From: Tannerellaceae bacterium
GTDB lineage: Bacteria; Bacteroidota; Bacteroidia; Bacteroidales; Tannerellaceae
Direction of reading: 5' to 3'
Assembly (NCBI GenBank): GCA_031280435.1
Contig: JAITGS010000009.1
Location: 1-47,931, forward strand
DNA length: 47,931 nt
The notes under the pieces are model-generated. The model worked only from the letters and a program-made list of their open reading frames with translations. It was not told the DNA's origin and did not search any database. Every line of letters begins with the position of its first letter. Within the stretch, counting starts at the first letter, position 1. Positions 8,153-46,434 of this stretch are shown here, piece after piece. The position numbers were made by a program, and so were the translations under genes.

Positions 8153-9007
8153 TTAATCTGTCTTCACTTTGCCTCCGAAATACTTACGCAGCAAGCCCGC
8201 AAGCAAATTCATCAGCAAAACTATTAGTATCAGCGTCAGCGCCGTGCCGTAGGCAATAGGGCGAGAGGCCTCAATGTTGGTGCCGCTGGTTGCCACAACA
8301 TACAAATGATAAGGCAAAGCCATCACCTGGTCGAAAATGCTGTGCGGCAATCGAGGCAGGAAGTAGGCCGCAACCGTAAACAGAATCGGAGCCGTTTCGC
8401 CCGAAACCCGTCCAATCGAAAGTATCAGCCCCGTCACAATATTGGGGAAGGCCATAGGCAAAGTTACCCTCACAATCGTCTGGAACTTGCTCGCGCCGAG
8501 CGCTAAACTTCCGCTGCGGAACGACTGAGGGATAGCCTTGAGCGCCTCTTCTGTCGTTCGTATGATCAGCGGCAGAATAAGAAGCCCCAGCGTAAAAGAT
8601 CCGGCAATGATAGAGTCGCCGAAGCCGAATGTATTAACAAACAGAGCCATACCGAACAAGCCGAAGACAATAGAAGGAATGCCTCCCAAGTTGTTTGTCA
8701 TAACCCTTATAAACTTCACAACAAATCCGTTGCCAGCATACTCGTTCATATATATACCCGACATCAATCCCACCGGAAAGGCGAACACGACGCTGCCCGC
8801 AACTAAGCAGAGCGTCCCTACGATAGCAGGCAGGATTCCACCGCCCGTCATGCCGTCGGTAGGCGCCGTCGTCAGAAATTCCCAGCTAATAGTGCCCGCT
8901 CCGCGATAAATGATGAAGCCCAGGATCCATAATAATATCCCAACGACCGCCAGGCTTAGGAGCCTGAAAATTGCAAAAGCTATCCGCTGTTTCGTCCGTT
9001 TGTTCAT
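8153..9007 (-). CDS. pstA: Phosphate ABC transporter permease PstA
   Basis: A 284-aa inner membrane permease with about six predicted membrane segments. The coupling-loop (EAA) region reads [26 protein letters not shown], typical of PstA, and [19 protein letters not shown] fits the first periplasmic segment. It forms the phosphate channel with PstC. It starts 2 bases after the pstC stop. Confidence 0.97.
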
Positions 9008-9009
9008 AG

Positions 9010-10221
9010 CTATAATCCCTTATTAACAGGCTGTTTCGAGATAACTTCCGCAGAAATACTAACCACTAATGTGATCAGAAACAGTATGCAGCCCAGCAAA
9101 AAAAGCGACTGATAATGCGTTCCACCCGAAGGCGCTTCCCCAAGTTCGGCCGCAATAGTCGCCGGAATTGTACGCACCGATTCGAACATCGATCGAGGCA
9201 TAACCGCAGCATTTCCCGTAACCATCAGCACGGCCATAGTCTCGCCGATAGCGCGGCCTACACCCAACACCACAGCCGCCATAATCCCCGACGAAGCATA
9301 CGGAACTATCACTTTATAAATGGTTTGCCAGTGAGTGGCGCCAAGCGCCAGACTCGCCTCGCGCATCGCCTTGGGGGTGGCACGCATGGCATCTTCCGCA
9401 ATCGTAATGATCGTAGGCAGGGCCATAATAGCCAGGATGAGGCTGCCGGCCAGCGCCGTCTCCCCAACCGGAAGATTCAGAGCCCGTTGTATCAAGGGCA
9501 CAAGCACCACCAAGCCGAAAAATCCATACACAACCGACGGAATCCCCGCCAGCAGCTCTATGGCCGGTTTAAGTAACTTGCGCATCCTCTCATCCGCAAG
9601 CTCCGAGAGGTAAATAGCAACGCCCAGACCCAGCGGCAAGGCTATAAGTATGGCGAAGAAGCTCACCCAAAGCGTCCCCATAATCAGCGGAAGCACACCG
9701 AATTGAGCGGCAGGCGTAGCCGTCGGCATCCATTCGATCCCTCCGAAGAAGCTTCGCGGAGAGATGTTCCGTAGCGGCAATATCCGCAGGTCGGCATTAT
9801 CCTTAGGCACATAAAGTTCGGGCAAAAAGGCAAGTATGTTGGGCTCGGATGCTATCACCTCTCCAAGCTTTTCGGGCAGCAGTTCGTAGTCATTTCCCAG
9901 TTCCGATTCATCATAAATTGAAAAGATGTCCTCAAAACGAAAGGGTATTATTTCAGCATCCGCACCACCCAACTCGCTCCAATTCGTATAAGTATAATCG
10001 AAGATCTCCTTGATTTGCCGAGAATCGAGCGCACCTACGGGATTCGAAACGTTCACCGCAAGCACATAAGCCTTCTCTACCTCAGAACTCCGGAAGAGCC
10101 CCAAGCCTTCTTTAAACAGGAAGATAATGATCAGAATTATTGCAAGGCTCGTCACACCGCCGCTCAAGGTGAACAGTCCCTGCATCAAATGCTCCGTAAT
10201 TTTTCTAATCCTTTTTCGCAT
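9010..10221 (-). CDS. pstC: Phosphate ABC transporter permease PstC with a PstS-like insert
   Basis: A 403-aa permease, about 100 residues longer than the classical PstC. The first membrane segment (about 22-42) is followed by an extra domain (about 45-165) before the conserved core (PLIMGTLWVSF onward, coupling loop EDAMRATPKAMREASLALGA). The insert resembles part of the neighbouring PstS: residues 52-94 (AVNVSNPVGALDSRQIKEIF, then TNWSELGG and IIPF) parallel PstS 102-143 (AVIVHPSNKVSGLTREQLEAIF, then TNWKDVGG and IIPY), and AFLPELYVPK parallels YVGLAYLNK. By topology the insert should be periplasmic. Confidence 0.96.
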   Translation of the reverse strand: MRKRIRKITEHLMQGLFTLSGGVTSLAIILIIIFLFKEGLGLFRSSEVEKAYVLAVNVSNPVGALDSRQIKEIFDYTYTNWSELGGADAEIIPFRFEDIFSIYDESELGNDYELLPEKLGEVIASEPNILAFLPELYVPKDNADLRILPLRNISPRSFFGGIEWMPTATPAAQFGVLPLIMGTLWVSFFAILIALPLGLGVAIYLSELADERMRKLLKPAIELLAGIPSVVYGFFGLVVLVPLIQRALNLPVGETALAGSLILAIMALPTIITIAEDAMRATPKAMREASLALGATHWQTIYKVIVPYASSGIMAAVVLGVGRAIGETMAVLMVTGNAAVMPRSMFESVRTIPATIAAELGEAPSGGTHYQSLFLLGCILFLITLVVSISAEVISKQPVNKGL

Positions 10222-14375: not shown

Positions 14376-14663
14376 ATGAACAGGATATTCCCTGATATAG
14401 AAGCAACTTTCCGCCATGAATTCCGGACGTTCCCGATCCCGCGCGGCTACTTAGCCGGAAAATCGGGCTACTTAGCCGGAAAACCCGGCTACTTAGCCGG
14501 AAAACCCGGCTACTTAGCCGGAAATCCCGGCTACTTAGCCGGAAAACCCGGCTACTTAGCCGGAAAATGCGGCTACTTAGCCGGAAAATGCGGCTACTTA
14601 GCCGGAACCTTAAAAGAATGTTCGGAATACTTTAAGACAGCCCGAAATTCTTATCGGACATAG
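14376..14663 (+). other. Open frame through the 21-bp array, doubtful gene
   Basis: Because 21 is a multiple of three, the array stays open as a 95-codon frame: an unrelated N-terminal 23 residues (MNRIFPDIEATFRHEF...), then eight heptapeptides GYLAGK followed by S, P, N-P or C, then an unrelated tail. Copy-to-copy base changes fall in one place of the unit and alter the amino acid, with no sign of synonymous preference. No TAnnTTTG box was seen upstream. I treat it as non-coding by default. Confidence 0.2.
14445..14612. repeat. Second 21-bp tandem array, 8 copies
   Basis: Eight 21-bp units begin at 14445 and every 21 bases to 14592. Each opens with GGCTACTTAGCCGG, in which GGCTA and TAGCC are inverted around CT; the variable part is AAAATCG, AAAACCC, AAATCCC or AAAATGC. 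The sequence is unrelated to the 21-bp array at 1-240 although the period is the same. It lies between divergently placed sufS and the 3' end of gcvP. Confidence 0.97.
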
Positions 14664-24463: not shown

Positions 24464-24784
24464 TTGAATGATATTATAATGCGTGCAAATAAAAAAAGAA
24501 AAAACAAGGGCAGCAATAAGGGCTCAAGGCAGGGCTGAAGGAATTTTCGCCTTGCTGCTATTGATTGCACCCTCACTTTTCAGGGAGAAGAGCTGACAAA
24601 ACGGCACACATCGCCTCGTTCACATATCTTCACACTAAACAGATTTATACACTTTCCTTAATTTATATTATATCAGAGCGCAATCTCTTATGCTTTCGGA
24701 TGTTAAAACTAAGCGTCAGTCCCATTGCAGGGCCCGTAGGTGAGGAAAAATAGACAAAAAAAACGCGGCACATAGCCAAATCGG

Positions 24785-25071
24785 TTTAACCGAAGCTCCC
24801 CGCTGTCAGCACGGAGCTTCGGTTAAAGCAAATATTAACAATTGCAGCTGCGTTCGTTAATATTTATTTTAACCGAAGGGCCTCGACGGCGGCGGGAAGG
24901 ATATTTTTTTTTACCGAAGCTTCCCGCTGACAGCACGGAGCTTCGGTAAAAACAAGTATTAACAATTCCAGCTGCGGCGTTAATACTTTTTTCAACCGAA
25001 GCTCCGTGCCGGCTGCGGGACGCTTAATATATTCCGATTTTCTTTCAAATTCTCAGCGGGAAACTTCGGTT
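24785..25071. repeat. Duplicated 124-bp hairpin block
   Basis: The order A-B-C is repeated with a 124-bp step. A is a hairpin: TTTAACCGAAGCTCC 24785-24799 with 24813-24827; second copy TTTTTACCGAAGCTTCC 24908-24924 with 24937-24952. B is an A/T-rich hairpin around CAGCTG: AAATATTAAC 24830-24839 with 24856-24865; second copy AAGTATTAAC 24954-24963 with 24979-24988. C starts with AACCGAAG (24871 and 24994); the second C is closed by CTTCGGTT at 25064-25071. Arm changes between copies are paired (A-T to T-A, A-T to G-C), so both copies keep their stems. Confidence 0.9.
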
Positions 25072-25318
25072 AAATTCAGGAGCTGTCATTTTGTCAGCAG
25101 GACGAATAGTTCTTCAGGCTACGGGATAGAAATGCTATGCCTTGCGTGTTTGCCTTGCAGCATCATTTTTTGACCTTGCTCAACGTATATTGTGAGTAAC
25201 GACAGGCTCCGGAGCCGCTTTTCAAGCCATCTTTAGCCAAAAGACAGGAATTTGAATGCCCGGATTGCATCTGCTTACATATATATATATAGCCATAAAC
25301 AGAATTGAAACATTTTAA

Positions 25319-25360: not shown

Positions 25361-26737
25361 ATGAAAAGAAGAGATTTTTTGACCAACACGGCGCTCATAG
25401 GCGCAGGACTGCCTCTCGGCGTGGCTCCGGTATTAACATCATGCAGCGGCGGCGCGGCCGGAACTACCGAAGCCGCACGCAGCTTCAGCCCCGAAGAATT
25501 AGGCATGTATTCATTTGTTGAGGTTGCTCCCGACGGCAAACCGCTGAAGGCCGCCCTCGTGGGATGCGGCGACCGCGGAACGGGAGCTGCTACACAATTC
25601 CTGAAATCGGGGCCCAACGTATCTATCATTGCACTTGCAGACATTTTTCCCGACAGGCAAGCAACTTGCCGGCAAGTGTTGAAAGATAAATTCAACAATG
25701 AAGTACCCGATGCCAATTGCTTCCTCGGATTCGAGGCCTACAAACAGGTGCTGGCAATGCCCGAAATCGACGTCGTACTCCTCTGCACCCCAACCCACTT
25801 CCGCCCCGAGCAGTTCAAGGCAGCCGTTGAAGCCGGCAAGCATATCTTCATGGAGAAGCCCTGCGCTGTTGACCCCACCGGCATCCGTACCGTAATCGCC
25901 GCAGCAAAAGATGCATCCTCCAAAGGACTTACGGTCATTACCGGAAACCAGCGCCGCCACTCGCGCGCATACTGGGAAGCCTACGTGCAGGTCAGGAACG
26001 GGCTGATTGGCGACGTACTTTCGGGCTCGGCGCACTGGGATCAGGGCGCATGGTGGAACAAACGCAAGCGGCCGGAATGGAGCGACATGGAATACTGCAT
26101 CCGCAACTGGTTTAACATCAAGTGGCTGAGCGGCGACCATATTCTCGACCAGGCCATTCACAACATCGACATCGTTACCTGGTTCATGGGCATGCGACCC
26201 ATCAGTGCGGTTGGCTTCGGCGGACGCGCTCAGCGACTTACCGGCGACATCTTCGACTTCTTCAGCGTTGATTACTACTATGAAAACAATCATAAGATGC
26301 TAACCACAGCCCGCCAAATCGACGGATGCGACGGCAATGTTTCCGAACAGGTTTACGGCACAAAAGGCATGTTCACCACCCGCAGAGTAGGCGAACGCGA
26401 AGGCTCCCGCATAGAAGATTACAACGGTAACGTCCTCTGGGCCTACGATTATAAGGGCAAGCCCGAAAAAAATCACTACGACCAGGAGCACATCCACCTT
26501 GTTGAATCCATACGCCTCGACAAGAAAATCAATCAGGCCGAAGATCTTGCATATTCCACCCTCGTAGCCATACAGGGCCGCGAAGCCGCCTACTCCGGCA
26601 AAGCCGTCACATGGGACGAAATCATGAGTTCCAACCTGCGCTACGGCCCGGAAACATACGCACTTGGCCCCATTCCGGATTACAAAGAAGGAGTGGCCCC
26701 GCTCCCCGGCAAAGCTCCGGATGCCCCGGTGATGTAA
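25361..26737 (+). CDS. Tat-exported Gfo/Idh/MocA-family oxidoreductase
   Basis: A 458-aa NAD(P)-dependent sugar-type oxidoreductase. The N-terminus is a twin-arginine signal, KRRDFLTNTALIGAG, ending in LTSC with Cys28, so it may be a Tat-exported lipoprotein. The Rossmann segment is AALVGCGDRGTGAATQF; the family motif EKP is in IFMEKPCAVDP; the conserved Asp/His lies in GDHILDQAIHNIDIVTWF. An exported member is expected to use a tightly held cofactor, as known for glucose-fructose oxidoreductase. The substrate is unknown. It has its own promoter and terminator. Confidence 0.92.
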   Translation: MKRRDFLTNTALIGAGLPLGVAPVLTSCSGGAAGTTEAARSFSPEELGMYSFVEVAPDGKPLKAALVGCGDRGTGAATQFLKSGPNVSIIALADIFPDRQATCRQVLKDKFNNEVPDANCFLGFEAYKQVLAMPEIDVVLLCTPTHFRPEQFKAAVEAGKHIFMEKPCAVDPTGIRTVIAAAKDASSKGLTVITGNQRRHSRAYWEAYVQVRNGLIGDVLSGSAHWDQGAWWNKRKRPEWSDMEYCIRNWFNIKWLSGDHILDQAIHNIDIVTWFMGMRPISAVGFGGRAQRLTGDIFDFFSVDYYYENNHKMLTTARQIDGCDGNVSEQVYGTKGMFTTRRVGEREGSRIEDYNGNVLWAYDYKGKPEKNHYDQEHIHLVESIRLDKKINQAEDLAYSTLVAIQGREAAYSGKAVTWDEIMSSNLRYGPETYALGPIPDYKEGVAPLPGKAPDAPVM

Positions 26738-33992: not shown

Positions 33993-34421
33993 ATGATAAG
34001 AGAAAAAATTCGGGTCGGAGCCGAACGCCCATTCGGTGGATCGCCGAACGAGCATTCGGTGGATCGCCGAACGCCCATTCGGTGGATCGCCGAATGGGCA
34101 GTCGGGTCACAGCCGACCGAGCATTTGGGTCACTCTCAAATGGGCATTCGGGTCACTCTCAAATGGGCATTATGCGATCGCAGAGTAGCCATTATGCGAT
34201 CGCAGAGCGGCCATTATTGAGATCGTTTAATGTACATTAAAGGGATCGTTTAATTACCATTAAAGGGATCGCATAATGTACATTAAAGGGATCGCATAAT
34301 GTACATTAAAGGGATCGCATAATGTACATTAAAGGGATCGCATAATGGGCATTAAACGGATCGCATAATCCCCACCCGGTATTTCATCACTAAGGATTTA
34401 TAATTTATAAGTATATAAAAC
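33993..34421. other. Gene-free region filled by a 23-bp array
   Basis: Between the TIM-barrel gene and the esterase there is no credible gene. About 350 of 429 bases are the tandem array described separately; the remainder is an A/T-rich leader of the esterase. Confidence 0.7.
34012..34374. repeat. Drifting 23-bp tandem array, about 15 units
   Basis: Units of about 23 bp run through the region, most containing GATC. The sequence shifts along the array: early units have CCGAA and TTCGG arms around CGAGCA or CGCCCA; the middle has CAAATGGGCATT and CATTATGCGATCG; later units have TTAATGTACATTAA arms, including an exact 16-base palindrome TTTAATGTACATTAAA at 34226-34241. The late type recurs nearly unchanged three times (34270-34338). 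Arms change on both sides together, so most units stay self-complementary. Confidence 0.92.
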
Positions 34422-40600: not shown

Positions 40601-41179
40601 AAAATTTTTAGGAGATTGGGAGGGGATGGATTTGGCATTGAGAGATAATTCCGGCGCCTGCTGCTTACAGGGGGGATGAAGCATTGTACGTTTCGGACGC
40701 AAAACTCCGGCGGCAGAAGGGAAATGTCGAAAAACAGGCGCCTCCTTTTCCGTCGAGGAGCCTCCGGAAAAAAAATTTGGCACCTCCTCGACGGAAAAGG
40801 AGCCTCCAAAAAAAATTTTTGGCACCTCCTCGACGAAAAAGGAGGCCTCAAAAAAAATTTTGGAGCCTCCTCGACGGAAAAGGAGGCGCCAAAAAAAAAA
40901 TTTGGAGCCTCCTCGACGGAAAAGGAGGCCTCAAAAAAAATTTTGGAGCCTCCTCGACGGAAAAGGAGGCGCCAAAAAAAAATTTTGGGGCCTCCCCGAC
41001 GAAAAAAAACCGCCAAAAAAAATTTTTGGAGCCTCCTCGACGGAAAAGGAGGGGGAGAAAAACAGCTTCGCAGGCGACATATCCTCCGCAGAGAGCCTCC
41101 GTTTTTTGGCATTAGCCGGCTTTTTTCGTAATTCGCAGACGGAAAAATTTCAGTTACACATATATTATATACCACAGAT
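40601..41179. other. Gene-free region with phased A-tract array
   Basis: Between the divergent lipoprotein run and the NIF3 gene there is no credible gene; overlapping open frames in several phases are low-complexity products of the array at 40739-41055. The 20 bases before 41180 hold the A/T-rich leader TATATTATATACC. Confidence 0.7.
40739..41055. repeat. 41-42-bp array of hairpins separated by A-tracts
   Basis: Seven units are marked by CGACG at 40789, 40831, 40872, 40914, 40955, 40997 and 41038; steps alternate 42 and 41. Each unit is GCCTCCT, a short loop with CGACGGAAA, AGGAGGC, then GCC or CTC, and a run of 8-10 A followed by 3-5 T. GCCTCCT and AGGAGGC form a 7-bp stem. The GCGCC and GCCTC junction types alternate in the middle of the array, giving an 83-bp dimer. 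An inverted unit (40739-40763) opens the array. Confidence 0.95.
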
Positions 41180-45990: not shown

Positions 45991-46434
45991 AGGTTTCCCG
46001 CACGCTTTTGGAAACTTACGAAAGCTCGAATCGAGTTTCCCGTGAGCTTTTGTAAACTTCCAGAAAGCTTGGATTGAGTTTCCCGTGAGCTTTCGGAAAC
46101 TTCCGGAAAGCTTGGATTGAGTTTCCGCAAGCCTCCGGAAACTTACGGAAGGCTTGGATCGACTGCCGCGCGAGCTTTTGGAAACTTACGGAAAGCTTGA
46201 GTTGGATTTCCGCAAGCCTCCGGAAACTTACGGAAGCTTGAACTTAGTTTTCCGCGAGCTTCCGGAAACTTACGGAAGGAATGAATCGAGGTTCCCGCGA
46301 GCTTCTATAACTTGCGAAAGCATGAATCGAGGTTCCCGCGAGCTTCTATAAACTTGCGGAAGGAATGAATCGAGATTCCCGCGAGCTTCTATAACTTGCG
46401 AAAGCATGAATCGAGGTTCCCGCGAAAGAATGTG
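45991..46434. repeat. Degenerate 42-43-bp tandem array, about 10 units
   Basis: Units begin near 45993, 46035, 46078, 46121 and so on at steps of 42 or 43. The core pattern is TTTCCCGCGAGCTT, then TTGGAAACTTACGGAAAGCTTG and GAAT(C)GAG, written here in parts. AGCTTTC and GGAAAGCT arms around GGAAACTTCC form small stems in the better copies. The last four units share a variant with CTTCTATAA. The array is more diverged than the others in the window. Confidence 0.9.

Follow-up and report, generated by a model that had tools for sequence, protein, structure and literature searches.

Twin hairpins lie in tandem in an intergenic gap of the 47,931-nucleotide stretch of DNA analysed here (the window), and their stems differ between the two units at bases that are matched on both arms. 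Are these matched differences the trace of a folded molecule kept by selection, or of a process that acts on the DNA itself? The initial annotation of the hairpin block (24785-25071) left both readings standing, taking the paired changes to mean that the stem is maintained by selection or by repair of cruciform arms. Since 'compensatory' hairpin changes are usually taken as proof of a functional RNA, the block offers a natural test case in which that reading can be set against copying between palindromic arms.

Analysis of the block by repeat search, pair table and DNA folding revealed the A and B hairpins as annotated (Table 1), with an A stem of 15 + 3 pairs. The described duplication of an A-B-C unit holds over A-B (68 nt, 90%, offset 124 bp) and is weak over C. 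Outside ACCGAAG, the two copies of hairpin A read TTTAACCG and TTTTACCG, a single-base difference, and only one pair has changed from A-T (24788/24824) to T-A (24912/24948), not the two that had been reported. The change of one hairpin B pair from A-T (24832/24863) to G-C (24956/24986), the difference at the centre of loop A, which is T/A in the letters themselves, and the inverted half-A that closes the block (90%) were all recovered. Of the two neighbouring genes, the left one (DUF6463, minus strand, start 24463) is 322 bp away and the right one, with its start at 25361, is at a distance of 290 bp.

On both strands the fold of the entire block is much more stable than those of its dinucleotide shuffles (z -9.1 and -13.2). 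Folded alone as DNA, A1 reached -17.4 kcal/mol (z -7.7) and A2 a z of -6.6, while B1 and B2 (z -1.3 and -2.5) stood only modestly above shuffles. No intrinsic terminators were called around the block. Searches of the window and of all five genome copies of the element described below against Rfam returned tRNAs and a nearby group II intron alone, with no match for the block. Readings as an integron attC site, whose boxes do not match, and as a CRISPR array, for which unique spacers are absent, were dropped on inspection.

Table 1. Coordinates of the element, its parts and the other tandem arrays of the window
Feature	Position	Strand	Basis or comparison
Full-length dispersed element (507 bp), present five times in the genome	24592-25098	+	common borders, unrelated flanks
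Leader, non-repetitive, 193 bp, common to all five copies	24592-24784	+	alignment; mean pairwise identity 0.92
Left end, GCTGACAAAACGGCA	24592-24606	+	inverted match 13/15 to 25084-25098
Hairpin A1	24785-24827	+	repeat search, pair table, DNA fold
Hairpin B1 (stem 24830-24839/24856-24865)	24828-24867	+	pair table, DNA fold
C1, brick of 41 bp resembling free-array units	24868-24908	+	matches the C123 array at 93% across 43 bp
Hairpin A2	24909-24951	+	repeat search, pair table, DNA fold
Hairpin B2 (stem 24954-24963/24979-24988)	24952-24990	+	pair table, DNA fold
C2, diverged brick, pairs with the A2 right arm around B2	24991-25031	+	inverted pair and RNA fold
Closing inverted half-A	25054-25074	-	90% complementary to 24785-24805
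Right end, GCTGTCATTTTGTCAGC, nearly self-palindromic	25082-25098	+	copy alignment, end search
Window array regions	1-239, 14444-14607, 34010-34369, 40756-41053, 45993-46425		others in L250-L269

The hairpin block forms the right side of a non-coding element, 507 bp long, that the earlier reading had overlooked. Searching the host's own genome (143 contigs totalling 3.06 Mb, at 83% completeness) revealed five full-length copies, the window copy (c72) and those on contigs C78, C85, C84 and C139, which align over 507-508 bp with 90-96% identity to the window copy and have unrelated flanks. In the five-copy alignment, the element begins with GCTGACAAAACGGCA and terminates with GCTGNCATNNTGNCAG(C/T). 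Its 15-nt ends, compared as inverted repeats, match at 13 of 15 positions in the window copy and at 9-13 in the others, with only a GCTGACA core remaining steady. No ORF of at least 80 aa occurs in the window copy. Mean identity between copies is 0.92 for the leader and 0.94 for the bricks described below; being about equally diverged, the two parts indicate that the element evolves as one unit.

All five copies are intergenic. Divergent genes flank the window copy (DUF6463 and Gfo-Idh) and one further copy (genes for a C69-type peptidase and a TetR-like protein), two copies lie between genes on the same strand (AhpD-like and sufC; DUF6913 and dapA), and the fifth lies in the convergent ruvC-pdxT gap; Pfam support applies to the neighbours of the window copy only, the names at the other four sites having been read from translations. 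Gene order was usable for an empty-site comparison only at dapA. There the gap holds the element and measures 713 bp, whereas in all 15 congeneric loci carrying both genes it is 52-70 bp long and brick-free, which indicates that the element arrived by insertion. The site holds about 145 bp extra besides the 508-bp element, so the insertion may be larger or compound. Conserved gene order was found neither at the window locus, among 80 Gfo/Idh relatives, nor likewise among relatives for the sufC and ruvC-pdxT sites.

The nearest relatives of the host's proteins place it in the Tannerellaceae/Parabacteroides group. The element was present in 0 of 40 relatives and in 0 of 123 other Tannerellaceae genomes. 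The exact brick pattern had no match in GTDB r220 contigs or in IMG/VR, from which records of or near the host genome were possibly excluded, and we therefore name no outside homologues. The element is a species-limited, MITE-like one that has spread to at least five intergenic sites of one species. No adjacent direct repeat common to both flanks, such as a target-site duplication, was detected at any of the five copies; close to the C139 copy, a direct repeat of CAGTATTTCG was rejected for this role, its left copy lying about 36 bp outside the border and its right one being partly shared with the C78 copy. Because the ends are imperfect and no target-site duplication was found, we use the term MITE-like and refrain from classing the element among the MITEs proper. 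End-motif searches for an insertion sequence with the same ends returned, in the 83%-complete genome, the five copies and chance-level matches. The Y1 (RAYT-type) transposase domain PF01797 had no match there at E<=0.001 and was present in 5 of 14 control genomes.

The A arms and C1 match free tandem arrays of a 41-bp unit, or brick (for example AATTTTTTTAACCGAAGCTCCCCGCAGCCAGCGGGACAGAT), at about 12 other places in the genome, on C20, C25, C34, C39 (two), C59, C68, C73, C107, C118, C123 and C129. Spacings within these arrays equal 41 with few exceptions, and the bricks of the element are part of a genome-wide minisatellite that also forms free arrays. In the window copy, A1, C1, A2 and C2 start at 24785, 24868, 24909 and 24991, that is at steps of +83, +41 and +82; these are approximately multiples of 41, which makes the 124-bp A-B-C unit a higher-order repeat of three bricks. 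Comparison by eye showed the same sequence ahead of the first brick in C25, C34 and C107, and another shared by C20 and C118. Two further families have the brick core AGCTCC..GCTGACAGC in common and differ in their palindromic linkers, TCAACAAATGTTGA and TCCACAAATGTGGA.

Several other observations concern the surroundings of the bricks. Other element families of about 500 bp, built from 41-bp units with the core GCTGACAGC, have linkers (TCAACAAATGTTGA/TCCACAAATGTGGA) that differ by paired changes; they lie at C85:18684-19204, C70:16438-16953 and C122:5826-6303 (L071-L073), and more such families occur on C10, C50, C55, C58 and C71 (L078-L083). Brick arrays also adjoin other repeated hairpins, GTAGAGACGCGATGCATCGCGTCTCTAC and GGGTCATTCCCGCCTTCGCGGGAATGACCC, several families of palindromes being crowded together at shared intergenic positions (L025:60-190, L070:640-780, L064:240-370 and L022:1320-1470). 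At L009:1349-1600 (C39:36010-36260), a brick array with 41-bp units closes with a full hairpin, and directly after it a group II intron starts (GTGTGCCGGGCATGACATC); the intron has an RF02001 match at L009:1675-1766, and the same 5' intron sequence recurs near L009:1140. The intron may have used the array hairpin as its insertion target.

The locus is probably best explained as a non-coding, non-autonomous MITE-like element whose arm changes arise mainly from palindromic arms copying one another. The element consists of the 193-bp leader, the A-B-C unit twice over from 41-bp palindromic bricks, an inverted half-brick that closes the block, and short ends inverted to each other. The copies, their borders and the one empty site in congeners show dispersal by insertion into intergenic sites. 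The mover could be a trans-acting transposase, presumably acting on the element ends, or recombination. Against this explanation, the ends are short and imperfect and recur in no other element found, none of the five copies has a convincing target-site duplication, and the 83%-complete genome gave no Y1 transposase.

A more specific reading, that of a true MITE whose GCTGACAAAACGGC-type ends are recognised by the transposase of a specific insertion sequence and whose hairpin block is cargo, is plausible if somewhat doubtful. It agrees with the size, the lack of genes, the copy number, the inverted ends and the empty site, and has a parallel in Porphyromonas gingivalis, where elements of similar build share their ends with IS5-type insertion sequences (PMC4596501). 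It is weakened by the missing target-site duplication, by ends that match at only 9-13 of 15 bases and by the lack of an insertion sequence with these ends in the 83%-complete genome.

By description, the closest known kinds appear to be MITE464/PgRS and BrickBuilt of P. gingivalis, a species reported with 22-, 23- and 41-nt repeats (PMC4596501). MITE464/PgRS is a dispersed, MITE-like, species-limited element of about 10-20 copies, with internal 41-nt tandem direct repeats and repetitive flanking segments (PMC4596501). The likeness lies in the 41-nt unit, the MITE-like dispersal and the related host, and was drawn from descriptions and not from internal sequence. BrickBuilt, with 23-nt bricks, IS5-like ends and 19 copies (PMC4596501), resembles our element in its leader, tandem bricks and tail, its strictly intergenic location, its predicted long stem-loops, its limited host range and its irregular or missing target-site duplications; no higher-order A-B-C block has been described for it. 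The leader flanking fixed-period bricks is thus found here as in these elements. The IS5-like ends listed for them (PMC4596501 Table 2) do not recur in GCTGACAAAACGGCA, and the MITE464/PgRS ends GAGACTGTTGCA/TGCAACGGTCTC resemble IS5-family ends whereas GCTGACAAAACGGC does not. The present element, a species-limited form of this kind, extends the minisatellite-bearing MITE-like elements of P. gingivalis to another Bacteroidales lineage, with different ends and the same 41-bp unit. A full-text search of the literature on such arrays in Parabacteroides and Tannerella found nothing relevant.

REP/BIME palindromes are 20-40 bp long and carry GTAG or CGTC tags, the GTAG ones being tied to RAYT transposases (PMC3733652). 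Like the bricks they are intergenic palindromic units, often close by in opposite orientation, but the present element consists of 41-bp bricks within 507 bp, and a reading as REP with a RAYT was rejected for want of a Y1 transposase match in the 83%-complete genome.

Bricks lie at a dozen other loci, which raises the question of whether the element owes its spread not to transposition but to recombination, homologous or illegitimate, among bricks already present at many intergenic sites. The missing target-site duplication and the shifting of variant blocks among arms (see below) would also suit such a route. We nevertheless consider it rather doubtful, because the copies share a brick-free 193-bp leader and a common left border, and because the dapA gap of the congeners has no brick.

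The matched arm changes were then compared over all five copies. By the initial annotation, further copies with paired changes would count as support, and copies with one arm changed alone as often as not would count against it; the four other copies gave 2 stem pairs altered on both arms, both in A1 of C84 (A-T to G-C and C-G to G-C), versus 12 one-sided breaks of pairs that are Watson-Crick in other copies. Eleven breaks are in C139 (five pairs in A1, five in A2 and one in B2) and one is in C84, where the innermost B1 pair is broken. Two further stem pairs gain or lose G-U, with C-G becoming T-G in A1 of C78 and T-G becoming C-G in A2 of C139. Both A stems of C139 lack their outer pairs and fold at -6.5 to -7.6 kcal/mol, versus -15 to -17 kcal/mol. 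C139 may be an older, decaying copy, which softens the break count; still, a stem under selection should not vanish in one of five copies. Among the A hairpins, six of which are distinct, 90.7% of cells are paired and both sides have changed in three pairs, giving a covariation score that was equalled in 49 of 500 shuffles and not reached by any slid register. The paired differences of A1/A2 and B1/B2 have a chance of about 0.03 each by a rough estimate and, being few and between two units, are suggestive rather than strong.

With 12 one-sided breaks against 2 paired changes, the stem upkeep by selection proposed for the block is not supported. A functional RNA or DNA structure, with regulatory, transcript-stabilising or insulating hairpins kept by selection and dispersal as a secondary matter, is unlikely. 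Such a structure would account for the strong folding on both strands, for the two clean paired changes of C84 together with the A1/A2 and B1/B2 differences, for the excess of paired changes in the true register over every slid one, and for the B1 stems, which were counted as invariant across the five copies even though the innermost pair of C84 is listed as broken. It sits poorly with the collapse of both C139 A stems and with a covariation score that shuffles can match, with the lack of an Rfam match at gathering score within the five copies, with the occurrence of copies in divergent, convergent and same-strand gaps alike, and with the absence of the element from all 123 relatives. An assembly artefact or chance is in practice refuted: the assembly is a draft of metagenome type in 143 contigs and some brick arrays end at contig edges, but the five copies are non-identical, sit within contigs of 19-48 kb and differ in the genes that flank them.

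The other half of the initial proposal, a process acting on the DNA, fared better. A two-base variant, AACCG to AGCGG (or its complement), is found in 5 of 35 arms, always jointly and never by half, a pattern with a probability of about 3e-6 if the two sites varied independently. It occupies the left and right A1 arms of C84, the right A1 and right A2 arms of C139 and the left C2 arm of C78, which are non-homologous arm positions, and in three of the five cases it faces an unmatched arm. A variant that moves as a block, three times without its match, points to arm-to-arm copying. The pattern comprises few variants in five copies and is partly explained by related copies inheriting a shared variant. 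From these alignments, copying between repeat arms appears favoured over a conserved RNA as the source of the matched changes.

In the preferred explanation, arms would serve as templates for one another, either through strand or template switching during replication or through conversion among repeats, and the block pattern suggests that this would shift short variant blocks among arms, at times leaving mismatched stems. Template switching at hairpins can yield multi-base paired changes and small loop inversions, and has been documented both creating and mending stems (PMC8794818). The likeness to our case lies in multi-base paired changes and loop inversions that arise without two separate compensating mutations; the difference is that template switching is a process and not an element, demonstrated in RNA genes (PMC8794818). 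The change between T and A in the middle of GCTGNCAGC would be consistent with template switching, and equally with a point mutation. In these data, template switching inside one hairpin is indistinguishable from exchange among copies.

The unit length itself recurs beyond the bricks. Tandem Repeats Finder, run on 446 kb of this genome, a sample partly picked from brick-bearing contigs, placed 52 of 53 arrays (at least three copies, period of at least 10) at periods of 21-23, 40-43, 81-83 or 123 bp, bands that were set after seeing the data. These arrays comprise many unrelated sequences, and their units show a tendency towards self-complementarity (fold z below -1 in 34 of 52, and below -2 in 18). 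Congeners (715 kb) had 22 of 25 arrays in the same bands, with 60-65 bp in addition, at a quarter of the density. The bands held 0 of 5 arrays in other genera of the family (241 kb) and 3 of 6 in other families of the order (530 kb), both small samples. Given the post hoc bands, the partly chosen sample and the small outgroups, the period pattern serves as a lead only. Five such regions, besides the element, occur in the 48 kb of the window, which was not chosen for its arrays.

A pitch of about 21 or 41-42 bp corresponds to two or four helical turns. A genome-wide system of this lineage may make or keep intergenic tandem palindromes at this pitch whatever their sequence, the element being one product of it, although we hold this idea as tentative and on the improbable side. 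If it were true, and if the unit length were fixed by a single enzyme or DNA-binding protein, this would amount to a new kind of repeat-making or chromosome-organising system. The unit length shared by unrelated arrays raises the question of what sets the pitch, which is hidden from sequence comparison alone. Long arrays of 23-bp and 21-bp units are also present in a related Tannerellaceae MAG (L113:6271-6493 and 8795-9141).
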